A DNA stretch of 28,698 bases, taken from positions 1 through 28,698 of the IMG/VR virus record IMGVR_UViG_3300021197_000490; one strand, written 5' to 3'. A program made the translations under genes and the position numbers. This document shows positions 4,596-11,763 of this stretch, piece by piece. The first letter of the stretch is position 1; each line of letters starts with the position of its first letter. Source of the stretch: a virus. Under the pieces are notes generated by a model. That model made no database searches. It had not been told where the DNA came from and saw nothing but the letters and a program-made list of their open reading frames with translations.

Positions 4596-5305
4596 ATCCT
4601 TATCAGAAACTACTAAACCGGAAACGGAAATGGACACCAGTACAGACAACTGCTGGTACATGCAAAGAAGGTGCACACGAAACACTGCTCCGTGCACTTG
4701 CGTTGCGACACATGGAACTACCTGTGGGAGATTTTATTCGTGATGCATTGGCGAATGACGTACCAAAAGCATCACGAGAGCTACTGGAATCCAATGTCAA
4801 AGACGAGGAGAACCATGACCTCGCGCTTGGTTTTATTGCCAATGCTTACGGGGTTGATCAAAAGGCTGAAGCTGAAGCGATACGGTTACGTGATGCTTGG
4901 ACAGCGCATCCGGATCATACGATCCTCAAAGCGATGGTTGCCGAGCGTGCAATATTCTTTGTTCTTTTACCATTGCTTCGCGCTAATGGTGACCCTGGAA
5001 TGCGAACAGTAAGCGCAGATATTAGCCGTGATGAACAAATACATGTCGCCGCGAATTCACTTGTATGTAGAGAACTAGGACTGGAGATCTCTCCAAGCCT
5101 GGACAAACTACGCAAAGCAACTATCAACTGGGTGATGCAACCACTTGGTAACAACATCGACAAATATCTAGACAAGAAATTCTGGCTGGATTCAAGTGAC
5201 AACTTGATGTATCAAGGCAAGGCTCCTGAGCTTTCCTTTACTAAGTCTGCACGTATGCCAGCGTTCTTTGAGCACTCGAATGTCAACCTCCCCCAATACG
5301 CTTAA
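4592..5305 (+). CDS. Ribonucleotide reductase class I beta subunit, no radical tyrosine
   Basis: A 237-residue ferritin-fold protein with the two-metal ligand set of a class I reductase beta subunit. It has E72-E-N-H75 (ExxH), Glu118 in VAERAIFF, E148-Q-I-H151 (second ExxH), and a likely first ligand Glu42. In Escherichia coli NrdB the radical Tyr122 lies four residues after the first ExxH His; here that position is Leu79. The protein therefore probably works without a tyrosyl radical, for example with a high-valent metal pair. It is far shorter than usual beta subunits (about 320-375 residues), with a contracted gap between Glu72 and Glu118. The ATG at 4592 overlaps the alpha stop by four bases, implying coupled synthesis. 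A GTG/TTG start a few codons upstream is possible but less likely. Confidence 0.82.
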   Translation: MNPYQKLLNRKRKWTPVQTTAGTCKEGAHETLLRALALRHMELPVGDFIRDALANDVPKASRELLESNVKDEENHDLALGFIANAYGVDQKAEAEAIRLRDAWTAHPDHTILKAMVAERAIFFVLLPLLRANGDPGMRTVSADISRDEQIHVAANSLVCRELGLEISPSLDKLRKATINWVMQPLGNNIDKYLDKKFWLDSSDNLMYQGKAPELSFTKSARMPAFFEHSNVNLPQYA

Positions 5306-5462: not shown

Positions 5463-5731
5463 TGTGTGTAAACATTGCAAGCTTGCTTGGCTTTAACCCT
5501 CCCAAGCCGCCCGATCCGCCGAAGCTTCCGCCGATTGTTAGGCAAAACCCAGAGCCTCCTAAGGCTGCACCGGCTCCACAGTCACTTGTCCCTAAGGATG
5601 AGAAGAAACCAAAGGTTGACTTCGCTAAGAAAATGTCAACTACCAAAGCTAAACGTGTTTGTGCAAGTGACCTAAAGATTCCTCTGCAACAGACCTCATC
5701 TGGCGGTGGTACTGGAGGACTAAATGTCTAA
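5462..5731 (+). CDS. Proline-rich small protein, T7 gp7.3-like position and C-terminus
   Basis: An 89-residue protein with a Pro-rich, basic N-terminal half (NPPKPPDPPKLPP, then PEPPKAAPAP) and a C-terminus reading TSSGGGTGGLNV. T7 gp7.3, a small virion protein needed for tail assembly and adsorption, occupies the same place before the portal and also ends in a Ser-Ser-Gly-Gly-Gly-x-x-Asn-type tail. I therefore call it gp7.3-like, mainly by position and the glycine-rich end; the rest is not alignable by eye. It starts one base into the previous stop and overlaps the portal start by eight bases. It is probably unstructured for much of its length. Confidence 0.6.
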   Translation: MCVNIASLLGFNPPKPPDPPKLPPIVRQNPEPPKAAPAPQSLVPKDEKKPKVDFAKKMSTTKAKRVCASDLKIPLQQTSSGGGTGGLNV

Positions 5732-7313
5732 AGCGAAAGAACGGTACAGTCAACTGTCATCTGACAGACACCAATTTCTTGACATAGCAGTTGAGTGTTC
5801 TGAACTGACGCTGCCTCATTTAATTACTGACGACCTACGTGTACGTCAGAATCACAAGAGGCTGACGACGCCATGGCAATCCGTCGGTGCAAAGTCAGTT
5901 GTCACACTTGCGGCCAAGCTCATGCTTGCGCTGCTACCTCCCCAAACTACGTTCTTCAAATTGCAAGTACGTGACGACAAGTTGGGTGAGGACTTACCTC
6001 CAAATGTAAGAAGTGAGCTTGACCTTTCCTTTTCCAAAATGGAGAGGATGGTCATGGATAAGATCGCTGCATCCAGTGATCGTGTCGTTGTTCACCAGGC
6101 TCTCAAGCACCTGATCGTCGGCGGTAACGCTTTGATCTTCATGGGCAAAGATGGTCTAAAGAACTTCCCATTAAATCGCTTCGTAGTCAGCCGTGATGGC
6201 AATGGCTATGTGTGCGAGATCGTCACCAAAGAGCTTGTCAACCGCAAGCTACTTGGCATCGACCCCATGCCTGATCCGAACACTGTGTCCGGTAAGGGCA
6301 ACAACGATGGAGATGCTGAGGTCTATACATACGTACGTCGTCAAGACAATGGCGGCTGGGTATGGCACCAGGAGGTCGATGACAAGATCATCGAAGGCTC
6401 CCGAAGTACTGCTCCTAAAGATGCAAGCCCTTGGTTAGTCCTGCGCTTCAACGCTGTTGATGGTGAGGACTATGGACGAGGACGTGTCGAAGAATTCCTT
6501 GGTGATCTCCGTTCACTGGAGGCACTAAGCCAAGCTTTGATTGAAGGCAGTGCAGCAGCAGCAAAGGTTGTGTTCCTTGTGAACCCTGCTGCTACTACCA
6601 AGCCAGCAACCATTGCCAAAGCTGGAAACGGTGCAATCGTGCAGGGTCGGCCTGAAGACGTAAGCGTCGTTCAGGTTGGTAAGACTGCGGATTTTGCTAC
6701 TGCCTCACAGATGGCACAGCAGATTGAGCGTCGTCTTGGCGAAGCCTTCCTGCTGCTAAATATCCGTCAGTCAGAACGTACAACTGCTGAAGAGGTACGC
6801 CTCACTCAGCTCGAACTTGAACAACAACTTGGCGGACTGTTCAGCTTGCTGACTGTTGAGTTCTTGAAGCCTTACTTGGCTCGGACCTTGATGGTTATGA
6901 CACGTAGTGGACAGCTTCCAAAGATTCCAAAGGACTATGTCCAGCCACAGATCGTGGCAGGTGTGAACGCACTTGGACGTGGTCAAGACCGAGAGAGCCT
7001 TACTGCTTTCATCGGAACCATTGCTCAGACACTTGGACCTGAAGCGTTGATGAAATACATCGATGCGTCAGAAGCTATTAAGCGTCTTGCTGCTGCTCAA
7101 GGTATTGACGTACTGAACCTGGTCAAGACCAAGGATCAGATGCAACAAGACATGCAGGAACAGATGGGCATTGCAAGCCAGAAATCTCTTGTCGATCAAG
7201 CCGGTCAACTTGCTGGAGCTCCAATGATGGATCCCAGTAAGAACCCTGATGCGATGGAGATGGCTCAACAAATGATGCAACAACAACAACCACCACTACC
7301 CACCGATGGCTGA
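5724..7313 (+). CDS. Portal (head-tail connector) protein, T7 gp8-like
   Basis: A 529-residue portal protein, close to the 536 residues of T7 gp8. Twelve copies form the ring at the packaging vertex through which DNA enters and leaves the capsid. Family-like blocks include the N-terminal LTLPHLI, TPWQSVGAKSVVTLAAKLMLALLPP, the central LGDLRSLEALSQALIEG, VQGRPEDVSVVQ, and RRLGEAFLLLNIRQSERTTA ahead of the long crown helices. The C-terminus is Met/Gln-rich (MQQQQQPPLP). GGAGG at 5714-5718 sits five bases before the ATG. The stop overlaps the scaffold start by eight bases, so expression is likely coupled. Confidence 0.95.
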   Translation: MSKAKERYSQLSSDRHQFLDIAVECSELTLPHLITDDLRVRQNHKRLTTPWQSVGAKSVVTLAAKLMLALLPPQTTFFKLQVRDDKLGEDLPPNVRSELDLSFSKMERMVMDKIAASSDRVVVHQALKHLIVGGNALIFMGKDGLKNFPLNRFVVSRDGNGYVCEIVTKELVNRKLLGIDPMPDPNTVSGKGNNDGDAEVYTYVRRQDNGGWVWHQEVDDKIIEGSRSTAPKDASPWLVLRFNAVDGEDYGRGRVEEFLGDLRSLEALSQALIEGSAAAAKVVFLVNPAATTKPATIAKAGNGAIVQGRPEDVSVVQVGKTADFATASQMAQQIERRLGEAFLLLNIRQSERTTAEEVRLTQLELEQQLGGLFSLLTVEFLKPYLARTLMVMTRSGQLPKIPKDYVQPQIVAGVNALGRGQDRESLTAFIGTIAQTLGPEALMKYIDASEAIKRLAAAQGIDVLNLVKTKDQMQQDMQEQMGIASQKSLVDQAGQLAGAPMMDPSKNPDAMEMAQQMMQQQQPPLPTDG

Positions 7314-8058
7314 AACATTCACTTATGACAACGCCCCTGACACAGAGGTCCTGACCGAAGAGGAACAGGATTCTCTGGCAGTGGGTGAAGAACTTATGGA
7401 CCAGCAGGAGAACCTCCTCGCTGGTAAATATAAGAACGCTGAGGACCTTGAGTCTGCATACCTTGAGCTTCAGAAGAAGCTGGGTGAAGGAAGCGACGAA
7501 GCTGAAGAAGAAGGAGAGATGGAAGATGCAGAAGAGTTTGAATCAACTCCTGCTACTGACATGATCTCTGCTGCTTCTCAAGAGTTTGCTGAAAATGGTG
7601 AGCTAACACCGGAGACACGTGATGCTCTGGCTGAGATGGATAGTGCTGAGCTTCTCGATGCATACATGTCCTTGGCACAACCACCTTCACCTGACCTGAC
7701 TGATTCAGATGTATCTAACCTGAAGGCTTCAGTTGGAGGTGAAGAAGCTTACAACCAGATCACTGGTTGGGCTGCTGAGTCTCTATCTGATGTAGAGCTT
7801 GATGCCTTTAACACCACAGTTGATAGTGGTTCGATGGCACAGATCCAGATGGTTATGGCTGGGCTTCAAGCTCGCTACCAAGCGGAGAATGGATACGAAG
7901 GTACGCAACTACAAGGCAAAGCTCCAAGCAATTCACGTGACACGTTCCGCAGTCAGGCTGAGGTTGTTGAAGCAATCAATGACCCACGGTATGACCGTGA
8001 CCCTGCATACAGGAACGACATCCTGATGAAGCTTGAACGATCTGACGTTGCATTCTAA
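7306..8058 (+). CDS. Capsid assembly scaffolding protein, T7 gp9-like
   Basis: A 250-residue, strongly acidic protein (runs such as EAEEEGEMEDAEEFE) between portal and capsid genes, where T7 gp9 lies (307 residues). Scaffold guides procapsid assembly and is lost before DNA fills the head. The N-terminus (LLAGKYKNAEDLESAYLELQ) is a segment typical of phage scaffolds, the middle is low-complexity acidic helix, and the C-terminus (RYDRDPAYRNDILMKLERS) is the charged part that usually binds the capsid protein. The ATG at 7306 overlaps the portal stop. The TAA overlaps the following hli ATG by one base. Confidence 0.9.
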   Translation: MAETFTYDNAPDTEVLTEEEQDSLAVGEELMDQQENLLAGKYKNAEDLESAYLELQKKLGEGSDEAEEEGEMEDAEEFESTPATDMISAASQEFAENGELTPETRDALAEMDSAELLDAYMSLAQPPSPDLTDSDVSNLKASVGGEEAYNQITGWAAESLSDVELDAFNTTVDSGSMAQIQMVMAGLQARYQAENGYEGTQLQGKAPSNSRDTFRSQAEVVEAINDPRYDRDPAYRNDILMKLERSDVAF

Positions 8059-8249
8059 TGACAGTTATTAACGAAGACGGCGGTCGTACAAACATCTACG
8101 CAATTGAACCCCCTATCACACTTATTGACGTGCGCGATTTACACAACGAAAACGCTGAGAAACTGAACGGTCGTCTGGCAATGCTAGGTGTCATGGCAGC
8201 ACTAGGTGCTTATGCACTAACTGGTCAAATCATTCCTGGAGTTTGGTAA
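8058..8249 (+). CDS. hli: High-light-inducible protein (Hli)
   Basis: A 63-residue, single-helix chlorophyll-binding-type protein of the Hli/Scp family. The signature is E34-x-x-N37-G-R39-x-A-M-x-G followed by a hydrophobic stretch AALGAYALTGQIIPGVW, the usual Hli membrane helix. Hli proteins bind chlorophyll and carotenoid in the thylakoid membrane and protect photosystem II under stress. In cyanophages they are thought to keep host photosynthesis running with phage D1. Its ATG overlaps the scaffold stop, so it is transcribed with structural genes, and its stop overlaps the next tiny ORF by one base. The residues before the motif (about 1-31) are less conserved. Confidence 0.93.
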   Translation: MTVINEDGGRTNIYAIEPPITLIDVRDLHNENAEKLNGRLAMLGVMAALGAYALTGQIIPGVW

Positions 8250-8329
8250 TGCCACAAGGTAAAGGTACATACGGTACGAAGAAAGGTCGTCCACCTAAGA
8301 AAGGTATGAAGGGTGGCAAAAAATGTTAG
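8249..8329 (+). CDS. Tiny Lys/Gly-rich basic protein (26 residues)
   Basis: A 26-residue ORF beginning MPQGKGTYGTKKGRPPKK and ending in a Lys-rich run and Cys. Its ATG overlaps the hli stop by one base, and it fills the gap before the next basic protein. More than a third of its residues are Lys or Arg, suggesting nucleic-acid binding. I recall very similar short ORFs in marine cyanophages, but none with a known function. The reading frame could be chance at this length; the exact one-base coupling and coding-like composition favour a gene. Confidence 0.6.
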   Translation: MPQGKGTYGTKKGRPPKKGMKGGKKC

Positions 8330-8552
8330 CCTCAAGATGGGCAAGCACAAGTCCCGCAAAGGTGGTCTAACTGCTGCGGGGCGTGCCAAGTACAACAGAG
8401 CAACTGGGTCCAACCTGAAGGCTCCACAGCCTGGTGGTGGACCACGTAAGAAATCCTTTTGTGCTCGTATGTCAGGTAACAAAGGACCAATGAAAGATTC
8501 AAAGGGTCGTCCTACTAGGAAGGCTCTAGCCCTACGACGCTGGAAGTGTTAA
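8313..8552 (+). CDS. Small basic conserved phage protein (79 or 71 residues)
   Basis: A basic protein with KHKSRKGGLTAAGRAKYNRA, then LKAPQPGGGPRKKSFCARMSG, NKGPMKDSKGRPTRKALA and a final RRWKC. This arrangement recurs in many marine phages as a short protein of unknown function; the paired Cys near positions 56 and 79 and the clustered Arg/Lys suggest nucleic-acid contact. I favour the GTG at 8313, because GAAAGG lies eight bases upstream. The ATG at 8337 (71 residues) has no Shine-Dalgarno but begins at the conserved MGKHKSRKGG. The GTG start overlaps the preceding ORF by 17 bases. Confidence 0.75.
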   Translation: MAKNVSLKMGKHKSRKGGLTAAGRAKYNRATGSNLKAPQPGGGPRKKSFCARMSGNKGPMKDSKGRPTRKALALRRWKC

Positions 8553-8554
8553 TC

Positions 8555-8707
8555 ATGCCTGCCAAACGTGGCTTATACGCCAACATTCACGCCAAGAAAA
8601 AGAGAATCGCTGCTGGTAGTGGCGAGAAAATGAGAAAGCCTGGGTCTAAAGGAGCACCCACGGCTGCGAACTTTAAACGCTCCGCAAAAACTGCAAAGAA
8701 AAAGTAA
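8555..8707 (+). CDS. Small Lys/Arg-rich protein (50 residues)
   Basis: A 50-residue ORF starting MPAKRGLYANIHAKKKRI, with AAGSGEKMRKPGSKGAPTA in the middle and a KTAKKK end. About a third of the residues are Lys or Arg. It is the third successive tiny basic protein after hli, three bases behind the previous stop. Similar peptides occur beside structural genes in cyanophages. A role in DNA or virion binding is plausible but not shown. There is no clear Shine-Dalgarno, so translation probably relies on readthrough from the gene before. Confidence 0.7.
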   Translation: MPAKRGLYANIHAKKKRIAAGSGEKMRKPGSKGAPTAANFKRSAKTAKKK

Positions 8708-8729: not shown

Positions 8730-9068
8730 ATGAAATCTATTATTATCGCTAGTCTCCTCGTCGCCGCTGGTGGCGCAGCTCATGCTGGTCCCTACGTCAA
8801 TGTAGAAACCAACTCAGGCTTCGTCGGATCTGACTACACAGGATCTGCTACTGATGTACATATCGGTGTAGAAGGTAACGGCTGGTATTTGCAGGGAGGA
8901 CCTGCTCTACTTGCACCGGACAATGCTGATGGTGAAGTAGAACTCTCAGGTAAAGCTGGTGGTTCTTATGGAATTAATGAAGCACTCTCTGTCTACGGAG
9001 AAGTGTCTTTCCTTACTGGAGATACAAACAGCTACGGCACTAAGGCCGGACTTAAGTATAACTTCTAA
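8730..9068 (+). CDS. Exported mini outer-membrane-like protein
   Basis: A 112-residue protein with a clear signal peptide: MKS, a hydrophobic IIIASLLVAAGG core, and AHA at 17-19 before GPYVNVE. The mature part (about 93 residues) alternates polar and hydrophobic residues in short strands rich in Gly, Tyr and Trp, lacks Cys, and ends LKYNF. A terminal Phe after alternating hydrophobics is the beta-signal used by outer-membrane barrel proteins. I infer a small beta-barrel or half-barrel targeted to the host envelope. Similar proteins occur in other cyanophages without known function. It has no Shine-Dalgarno; its leader at 8708-8729 is A/C-rich. Superinfection exclusion or permeability change are possibilities only. 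Confidence 0.7.
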   Translation: MKSIIIASLLVAAGGAAHAGPYVNVETNSGFVGSDYTGSATDVHIGVEGNGWYLQGGPALLAPDNADGEVELSGKAGGSYGINEALSVYGEVSFLTGDTNSYGTKAGLKYNF

Positions 9069-9175: not shown

Positions 9176-10252
9176 ATGACCGCTGTACTTTCAAGACCAC
9201 AACAACTAAATAACTGGGAAGCCTTTTGTAATTGGGTTACCTCTACTAACAACCGTCTGTATGTCGGTTGGTTTGGAATCCTCATGATTCCCACGCTGCT
9301 TGCAGCTACCACTTGTTTCATTATTGCCTTCGTTGGCGCACCACCTGTAGACATTGATGGCATTCGTGAACCAGTTGCAGGATCGCTCCTGTACGGAAAT
9401 AACATTATATCGGGAGCAGTTGTCCCGTCTTCAAATGCAATCGGCCTGCACTTCTATCCCATCTGGGAAGCAGCCAGTCTCGATGAATGGCTATACAACG
9501 GCGGACCATTCCAGCTTGTTGTCTTCCACTTCCTTATCGGTATCTACTCTTACATGGGACGCGAATGGGAACTTAGCTACCGGCTAGGTATGCGTCCTTG
9601 GATCTTCGTTGCTTACTCAGCACCAGTTGCTGCGGCAAGTGCTGTCTTCTTGGTATACCCCTTTGGACAAGGTTCTTTTTCAGATGCGATGCCTCTTGGC
9701 ATTTCCGGCACCTTCAACTACATGTTGGTCTTCCAAGCTGAACACAATATTCTTATGCATCCTTTTCATATGCTTGGTGTTGCCGGCGTATTTGGTGGGG
9801 CTTTGTTCAGCGCTATGCATGGTTCTCTTGTCACCAGTTCCCTGGTTAGGGAGACGACCGAGAATGTATCTCAGAACTATGGGTATAAATTTGGACAGGA
9901 AGAAGAGACATATAATATTGTCGCTGCTCACGGATACTTTGGTCGGTTGATCTTTCAATATGCTTCTTTCAATAATTCTCGCAGCCTTCACTTCTTTCTT
10001 GCTGCTTGGCCCGTTGTTGGGATTTGGTTCACCGCTTTGGGTGTTTCCACAATGGCATTCAACCTTAACGGTTTCAACTTCAATCAGTCAATCGTTCATG
10101 GTGGACATGTCGTTAATACCTGGGCTGACATCCTTAACCGGGCTGGCTTAGGTATGGAAGTAATGCATGAGCGTAATGCTCATAACTTCCCACTTGATCT
10201 GGCAGCAGCATCTACCACTGAGGTAGCACTGACTGCTCCATCTATTGGTTAA
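9176..10252 (+). CDS. psbA: Photosystem II D1 protein
   Basis: A full-length 358-residue D1, the reaction-centre protein that turns over fastest in light. Seen directly: Tyr161 (YZ), Asp170, Glu189, His190 and His198, all at standard numbering. The late ligands HERNAH and LDLA follow, but one residue early (His331, Glu332, Asp341, Ala343). Residue 130 is Glu (MGREWEL), as in high-light D1 forms. A C-terminal extension of about 15 residues follows the usual processing site after LDLA. The one-residue shift comes from an altered lumenal loop, HGGH at 308-311, where cyanobacterial D1 normally has DSQGR-type sequence. There is no intron and no Shine-Dalgarno; the leader is A/T-rich. Phage D1 replaces damaged host D1 during infection. 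Confidence 0.98.
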
Positions 10253-10626: not shown

Positions 10627-11763
10627 ATGGCACAACAATCTAGTACTCTTACCACGTCACTAACTAGACCTGGTATTAACGCGAATCAGGCGACTCCGTC
10701 AACTGATCCTCGTGCTCTCTATCTGAAGTTGTTCAGTGGAGAAATGTTTAAAGGCTTCGAGAATAACGCTATCGCTCGCGATCTCGTTATGAAGCGCACA
10801 CTTAAGAACGGCAAGTCTTTGCAGTTCATCTACACCGGTCGCACTACGGCTGAGTACCACACGCCTGGTAACGCCATCCTTGGCAACAGCGATGGTGCAC
10901 CTCCAGTGGCCGAGAAGACCATCACTGTTGATGACCTTCTGATCAGCTCTGCCTTCGTGTACGAGCTTGACGAAACTCTTGCTCACTACGAGCTGCGTGG
11001 CGAGATCTCTAAGAAGATCGGCTATGCACTTGCTGAAAAGTATGACCGCTTGATCTTCCGTGCGATCACCCGTGGTGCACGTTCTGCATCGCCGATCGCA
11101 AAGACCAACTTCAAAGAGCCAGGTGGTACTCAGGTCCGCGTTGGTGCTACTACTAACGAGTCTGATGCATACTCTGCAACCGCTCTAGTGGATTCCTTCT
11201 ACGACGCCGCGGCTGCGTTGGACGAAAAAGGAATTAGTCAAGACGGGAGAGTCGGGATCTTAAACCCAAGACAATATTATTCGCTGATCCAACAAGTGGG
11301 TGAGAACGGTTTGATCAACCGCGACGAGCAGGGCTCCTCTCGTCAAAGCGGCCAAGGCATCGTTGAGATCGCTGGCATCAAGATCTACAAGTCAATGAAC
11401 ATCCCGTTCCTTGGCAAGTACGGCACCAAGTACGGCGGCACCTCTGGTGTTGCTGATCCTGGTAACACTGGTGACTTCATCGGAGTTGCTGCTGAGAACG
11501 CCTCTGGCGCTACCACCGGCATCAACAACGACTACGGAACTGCTGCTGAACTGGGCTCTAAGTCCTGCGGCATCATCTTCCAGAAAGAAGCCGCTGGCGT
11601 TGTTGAGACCATCGGACCACAGGTCCAGGTGACCTCTGGCGACGTGTCTGTTGTGTATCAGGGCGACGTGATCCTTGGCCGTTTGGCTATGGGCGCTGAC
11701 TACCTGAACCCTGCTGCTGCTGTTGAGCTGTATGTAGGCGCTACTGCACCTGCTGCATTCTGA
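10627..11763 (+). CDS. Major capsid protein, T7 gp10-like
   Basis: A 378-residue HK97-fold major capsid protein, similar in length to T7 gp10A. Family blocks include the N-terminal arm through ALYLKLFSGEMFKGFENN, the FIYTGRTTAEYHTPGN segment, and LLISSAFVYELDETLAHYE leading into the long helix with KKIGYALAEKYDRLIFRAI. VGILNPRQYYSLIQ and the P-domain run up to GDVILGRLAMGADYLNPAAAVEL. It is expressed strongly, with its own leader upstream and a strong terminator 15 bases after the stop. Codon choice is distinctly GC-richer than in the neighbouring small genes, consistent with high expression. I see no frameshift signal for a minor form. Confidence 0.97.
   Translation: MAQQSSTLTTSLTRPGINANQATPSTDPRALYLKLFSGEMFKGFENNAIARDLVMKRTLKNGKSLQFIYTGRTTAEYHTPGNAILGNSDGAPPVAEKTITVDDLLISSAFVYELDETLAHYELRGEISKKIGYALAEKYDRLIFRAITRGARSASPIAKTNFKEPGGTQVRVGATTNESDAYSATALVDSFYDAAAALDEKGISQDGRVGILNPRQYYSLIQQVGENGLINRDEQGSSRQSGQGIVEIAGIKIYKSMNIPFLGKYGTKYGGTSGVADPGNTGDFIGVAAENASGATTGINNDYGTAAELGSKSCGIIFQKEAAGVVETIGPQVQVTSGDVSVVYQGDVILGRLAMGADYLNPAAAVELYVGATAPAAF

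Follow-up and report, generated by a model that had tools for sequence, protein, structure and literature searches.

The small barrels of the bacterial outer membrane, such as the N-terminal domains of OmpA and OprF, OmpX and OmpW, are up-and-down meanders of eight strands with a hydrophobic outside, a charged inside and a phenylalanine at the C-terminus. To our knowledge, eight is the smallest number of strands in a natural single-chain outer-membrane barrel. Minimal barrels with short loops have been designed de novo, also with eight strands (PDB 6x9z, 6x1k). In the YadA-type trimeric anchors of other phages, which occur in phage fibres, each chain instead adds four strands, preceded by a coiled coil. 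In cyanophages, a family of small proteins is described in Pfam as 'Cyanophage outer membrane protein like beta barrel domain' (PF24653, Phage_OMP) and goes by the names DUF680 or PhCOG173 in papers on cyanomyoviruses (PMC6224464, PMC9146016). Our literature search found no published functional test of this family. ORF224 of S-TIM4, which in our search matches PF24653 with 109 bits, acquired 13 mutations, many of them inactivating, that reached approximately 100% in populations evolved experimentally on Synechococcus WH8102 under nutrient-replete conditions. Its product is not particle-associated, having gone undetected in virions by mass spectrometry, the host strains of that study lack a homologue, and a response to phosphate limitation had been suggested for it earlier (PMC6224464). 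A DUF680-named protein is included, with two peptides, in the virion proteome of S-SZBM1 (PMC9146016).

The window analysed here, the whole of a 28,698-nucleotide stretch (28.7-kb virus contig), is part of a T7-like cyanopodovirus. It contains an ATG-initiated open reading frame for a protein of 112 residues, with exactly the limits given in the initial annotation (Table 1). This is a real gene, because homologues are present in 468 phage records and in 588 of the first 599 viral contig stretches among the matches listed. It is also under constraint, given that the median pairwise dN/dS of the mature domain is 0.07 among close podoviral relatives.

Table 1. Coordinates of the Phage_OMP gene, its predicted elements and its neighbours in the window.
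Feature	Position	Strand	Basis
hli, upstream neighbour	8058..8249	+	phrog_178
DUF6321 small basic protein	8313..8552	+	PF19846, 93 bits
Phage_OMP (PF24653) gene, 112 aa	8730..9068	+	ORF list; Pfam, 127.6 bits; phrog_417; 468 phage records
Predicted Sec signal peptide, residues 1-19	8730..8786	+	Sequence, A19 invariance, AxA-like site, low pLDDT
Predicted β-strand 1 (residues 20-32)	8787..8825	+	AlphaFold2, dyad pattern
Predicted β-strand 2 (35-49)	8832..8876	+	AlphaFold2, hairpin covariation
Predicted β-strand 3 (52-63)	8883..8918	+	AlphaFold2, hairpin covariation
Predicted β-strand 4 (69-81)	8934..8972	+	AlphaFold2, hairpin covariation
Predicted β-strand 5 (86-95)	8985..9014	+	AlphaFold2, hairpin covariation
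Predicted β-strand 6 (101-110)	9030..9059	+	AlphaFold2, hairpin covariation
C-terminal GLKYNF, BAM-type β-signal (G..h.F)	9048..9065	+	Motif kept in 383/389 relatives
psbA (photosystem II D1), downstream neighbour	9176..10252	+	PF00124, phrog_182
Major capsid protein (T7-like gp10), marks late structural block	10627..11763	+	PF21703

The match to PF24653 far exceeds the cut-off of 27 bits and spans the whole protein, residues 3-112 aligning with positions 4-122 of the 122-position profile; the PHROGs family is annotated as being of unknown function. The presence of psbA, hli and structural genes of T7-like type in the window accords with the occurrence of the family in cyanophages. Judged by its sequence, the window gene is a new member of an already named family that is common in cyanophages. 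The initial annotation had called such a protein rare for a phage accessory gene, which is wrong: the records found by tblastn are those of Synechococcus, Prochlorococcus, cyanophage, marine or uncultured phages, and hundreds of cyanophages sequenced so far, T4-like as well as T7-like, contain the gene. The closest relatives are on two Mediterranean podovirus contigs that share the gene order of the window, AP013538 (95%) and GU943054 (73%). The T4-like copies are annotated as 'DUF680' or T4-GC 241, and the cyanomyovirus members of PF24653 have in common with the window protein the whole-length profile, the signal peptide, six predicted strands and the terminal phenylalanine. Podoviral copies group together on the tree, with 5 label changes versus 50 expected, and transfer of the gene between podoviruses and myoviruses has therefore been rare. 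No copy was found in S-PM2, P-SSP7, Syn5 or P60. The phosphate-induced genes S-PM2d004 and S-PM2d169 were considered as possible relatives and rejected, as neither is a family member. The GU943054 copy has been deposited as a 166-residue open reading frame (L084:4842-5342); our alignment begins at 5001, so the start was probably placed too far upstream in that record, masking the signal peptide.

We located no copy on any cyanobacterial genome. A scan of genome contigs returned seven matches, none titled as a cyanobacterium, and on all seven contigs the copy is accompanied by genes or gene orders of cyanophages (portal, psbA, pstS, nrdC-td-phoH, hli). An origin from a host gene was therefore rejected at the level of family matches, which is what the scan covered; more distant host relatives may still exist. 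The family appears, in cyanophage gene orders, in public bins with the titles Euryarchaeota, Dehalococcoidia, Lewinella, Flavobacteriales, Rhodobacteraceae and Porticoccaceae, and on a 188-kb contig of a Nonlabens isolate assembly (L090-L096), all of which are probably mis-binned or contaminating phage DNA.

The protein begins with MKSIIIASLLVAAGGAAHA (residues 1-19) and continues with GPYVNVETNSGF...KAGLKYNF. The first 19 residues contain Lys and a hydrophobic stretch and end in Ala-His-Ala, as in a Sec signal peptide, which is likely to be cleaved after this motif. Ala19 is invariant across 63 relatives, an AxA-like cleavage site is present in 388 of 389 unique full-length relatives, and the signal peptide is disordered in the AlphaFold2 model (low pLDDT over residues 1-18). 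The 93 residues of the mature part comprise 19% Gly and 12% Phe, Tyr and Trp, with a net charge of -8. They contain no cysteine, and neither does the mature part of any of the 389 relatives. Of these same relatives, 386 end in phenylalanine and 383 retain the terminal β-signal in the form G..h.[FYW].

AlphaFold2, run on an alignment of the 63 relatives, predicts six antiparallel strands, with a pLDDT of approximately 90 over the mature part, and the pstS-linked branch of the family (see below) also has six strands when folded from a separate alignment. The protein thus combines a Sec signal peptide, an antiparallel meander with a dyad repeat and a terminal aromatic β-signal, three hallmarks of outer-membrane barrels. 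In the VIA fold comparison the top matches are OprF (Z = 10.3) and OmpA (9.8), followed by the de novo barrel 6x9z (9.6; r.m.s. deviation 2.2) and OmpW (9.3). The resemblance to the natural barrels does not extend to the sequence, where identity is approximately 15% and there is no match, and a sequence search against solved structures likewise gave no meaningful match. Foldseek found no solved structure at E<0.001; its top PDB matches, all non-significant, are mostly outer-membrane proteins, and the only significant named matches in the viral library are to the Phage_OMP family itself. The YadA-type anchors show a weak Foldseek likeness over approximately 63 residues, but the window protein lacks their coiled coil. 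The alternation of polar (lumen) and hydrophobic (lipid) positions is stronger than in all of 10,000 within-strand shuffles. Mean-field covariation on 387 sequences (effective number, 73) recovers all five antiparallel hairpins with scores of 4.1-8.1. The score for strands 1 and 6 is 3.4, the same level as that of the non-adjacent pairs 2-4 and 3-5, and closure of the barrel is therefore only suggested. Taken with the Pfam assignment, the sequence and the model make it very probable that the product is an outer-membrane barrel. The initial annotation had proposed as much from the signal peptide and the Gly/Tyr-rich, strand-rich mature domain ending in Phe, and had named structure prediction as one of the checks; all of these features are borne out, and a sheet is indeed predicted.

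With six predicted strands and 93 residues, the mature protein differs from the eight-stranded OmpA, OprF, OmpX and OmpW, and its predicted outer loops, at 2-5 residues, are shorter than theirs. Given the eight-strand minimum stated above, either this is a smaller barrel or several chains combine. If closed by one chain, it would be smaller than any known natural single-chain outer-membrane barrel, and with six strands the family would serve to probe how small a natural membrane barrel can be. In the model, conserved Glu, Lys, Asp and His side chains fill a narrow lumen. This speaks against a pore that is open in the monomer, and a single chain of the psbA-linked form does not look like one.

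In the window, the portal (5724-7313) and scaffold (7306-8058) genes lie upstream and tail genes lie beyond the capsid gene. The Phage_OMP gene is 107 nucleotides upstream of psbA, confirming the location beside psbA that had been noted initially. The usual order in podoviruses, seen also in S-SBP1 (where the copy is gp29, between hli and psbA) and S-RIP1, is portal-scaffold-hli-(DUF6321)-OMP-psbA-capsid. Of 23 podovirus loci having at least 1.5 kb of downstream sequence, 21 have psbA no more than 3 kb away. In P-SSP10 the copy follows psbA, and in P-SSP7 hli is followed directly by psbA with no copy between them. A hairpin between the Phage_OMP gene and psbA is no better than in shuffled sequences (z = -0.73), and scans for promoters and terminators gave results at chance level.

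Myovirus copies adjoin nrdC-td-phoH, CP12/talC or hli genes, and one myovirus branch is located directly upstream of pstS in 70 of 71 loci having at least 600 nucleotides downstream. Two copies in tandem precede pstS in pstS-carrying cyanomyoviruses (L102:2998-4910, L437:2258-4214); the order is talC-2OG-OMP-OMP-pstS in P-SSM2 and OMP-OMP-pstS in S-SCSM1. Scanning for the Pho-box pattern YTTAAN6YTTAA, we found boxes in 22 of 72 regions upstream of the pstS-linked branch, versus 1.0 expected. The second gene of the tandem, which has the pstS link and the Pho box in P-SSM2 and S-SCSM1, belongs to this branch and has a charge-swapped lumen, K26 E75 K91 E105, where the window protein has E26 K75 E91 K105. 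The swap coincides with a single tree branch and is thus counted as one event. The mature domain of the pstS-linked branch contains 14 Lys and Arg residues versus 4 in the branch of the window, and has 8 positive residues on the lumen side versus 3. None of these distinguishing features of the pstS-linked branch is found in the window copy: psbA rather than pstS is downstream (pstS is near none of 48 loci of its clade), the lumen is not swapped, and Pho boxes are absent both upstream of the gene and from all 41 regions scanned upstream of genes of its branch. We therefore rejected regulation of the window gene by phosphate, and the phosphate link cannot simply be transferred to its branch.

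Our best overall explanation, to which we give slightly less than an even chance, is that the protein is an auxiliary outer-membrane barrel for the host cell during infection, acting in permeability, and that myoviruses have a distinct version for phosphate. Sec would export the Phage_OMP protein, cleavage after Ala19 would remove its signal peptide, and the BAM machinery of the host would fold the remaining 93 residues into the outer membrane as an up-and-down barrel of six strands, with very short loops and a lumen that is charged and salt-bridged. The protein would be made together with the hli/psbA/capsid block and would serve the infected cell by keeping up or changing small-solute permeability after host synthesis stops, the barrel being closed by one chain or shared between several. 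The window form would be the psbA-linked counterpart of the phosphate-linked branch upstream of pstS. A change in host permeability was one of two roles suggested in the initial annotation, and it is the better supported one, mainly through the pstS-linked branch, although the branch of the window lacks that link; we regard a role in permeability or nutrient uptake as possible, at somewhat below even chances. The loss of S-TIM4 ORF224 in replete medium fits a conditional accessory function in the host envelope. If the family indeed acts in permeability, phages supply an outer-membrane step in nutrient capture besides PstS, and the psbA-linked form would extend this step to a different need. 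A more doubtful proposal is that these proteins are natural transmembrane barrels of six strands, one-chain or shared, and that the family has diverged into two versions: one upstream of pstS that is phosphate-regulated and anion-friendly, and one beside psbA that is linked to photosynthesis.

The other role suggested initially, a block to superinfection, would have the barrel inserted late into the outer membrane, masking or remodelling the receptor to prevent further phage adsorption. Outer-membrane localisation and the position in the late block would fit, as would the restriction of the gene to phages, with no copy located in cyanobacterial genomes or in the S-TIM4 host strains (PMC6224464). 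We found no positive evidence for it, and it is unlikely: the predicted outer loops offer little surface for receptor masking, conservation is strong, with no hint of rapid evolution in an outer loop, the pstS-linked branch points elsewhere, and the S-TIM4 gene was lost on one host only. An outer-membrane barrel whose gene lies among the late structural genes might also help egress, weakening the outer membrane or triggering release at lysis. This we consider quite unlikely, as P-SSP7, Syn5 and P60 manage without the protein, related copies adjoin talC, nrdC, hli or pstS and not lysis genes, and S-TIM4 populations thrive after losing the gene. That the protein is a virion component is suggested by the neighbouring capsid and scaffold genes and by the S-SZBM1 proteome (PMC9146016), but it is very unlikely in view of the cleavable signal peptide and the failure to detect the S-TIM4 member in virions (PMC6224464); envelope carry-over or debris in virion preparations can explain the two S-SZBM1 peptides. 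Finally, a small, soluble, avidin-like periplasmic barrel binding a ligand is most improbable, since avidins reach only Z ~7 (7.1 or less) in the VIA comparison, clearly below the outer-membrane barrels at Z 9-10, outward hydrophobic positions alternate with a polar lumen, and the terminal Phe β-signal is almost invariant.

In AP013538, a TolA-like protein is annotated just upstream of the portal region (L083:8340-8663) and is possibly another envelope-related accessory gene. Between hli and the Phage_OMP gene, the window has three tandem, overlapping small open reading frames for basic proteins rich in Lys and Gly (8249-8707): one of 26 residues, MPQGKGTYGTKKGRPPKKGMKGGKKC; DUF6321, which has a GTG start inside the first; and phrog_16028 (8546-8707). 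DUF6321 also forms the C-terminus of far larger phage proteins (phrog_10346, phrog_3477), suggesting a single short basic tail module that occurs either standalone or fused.
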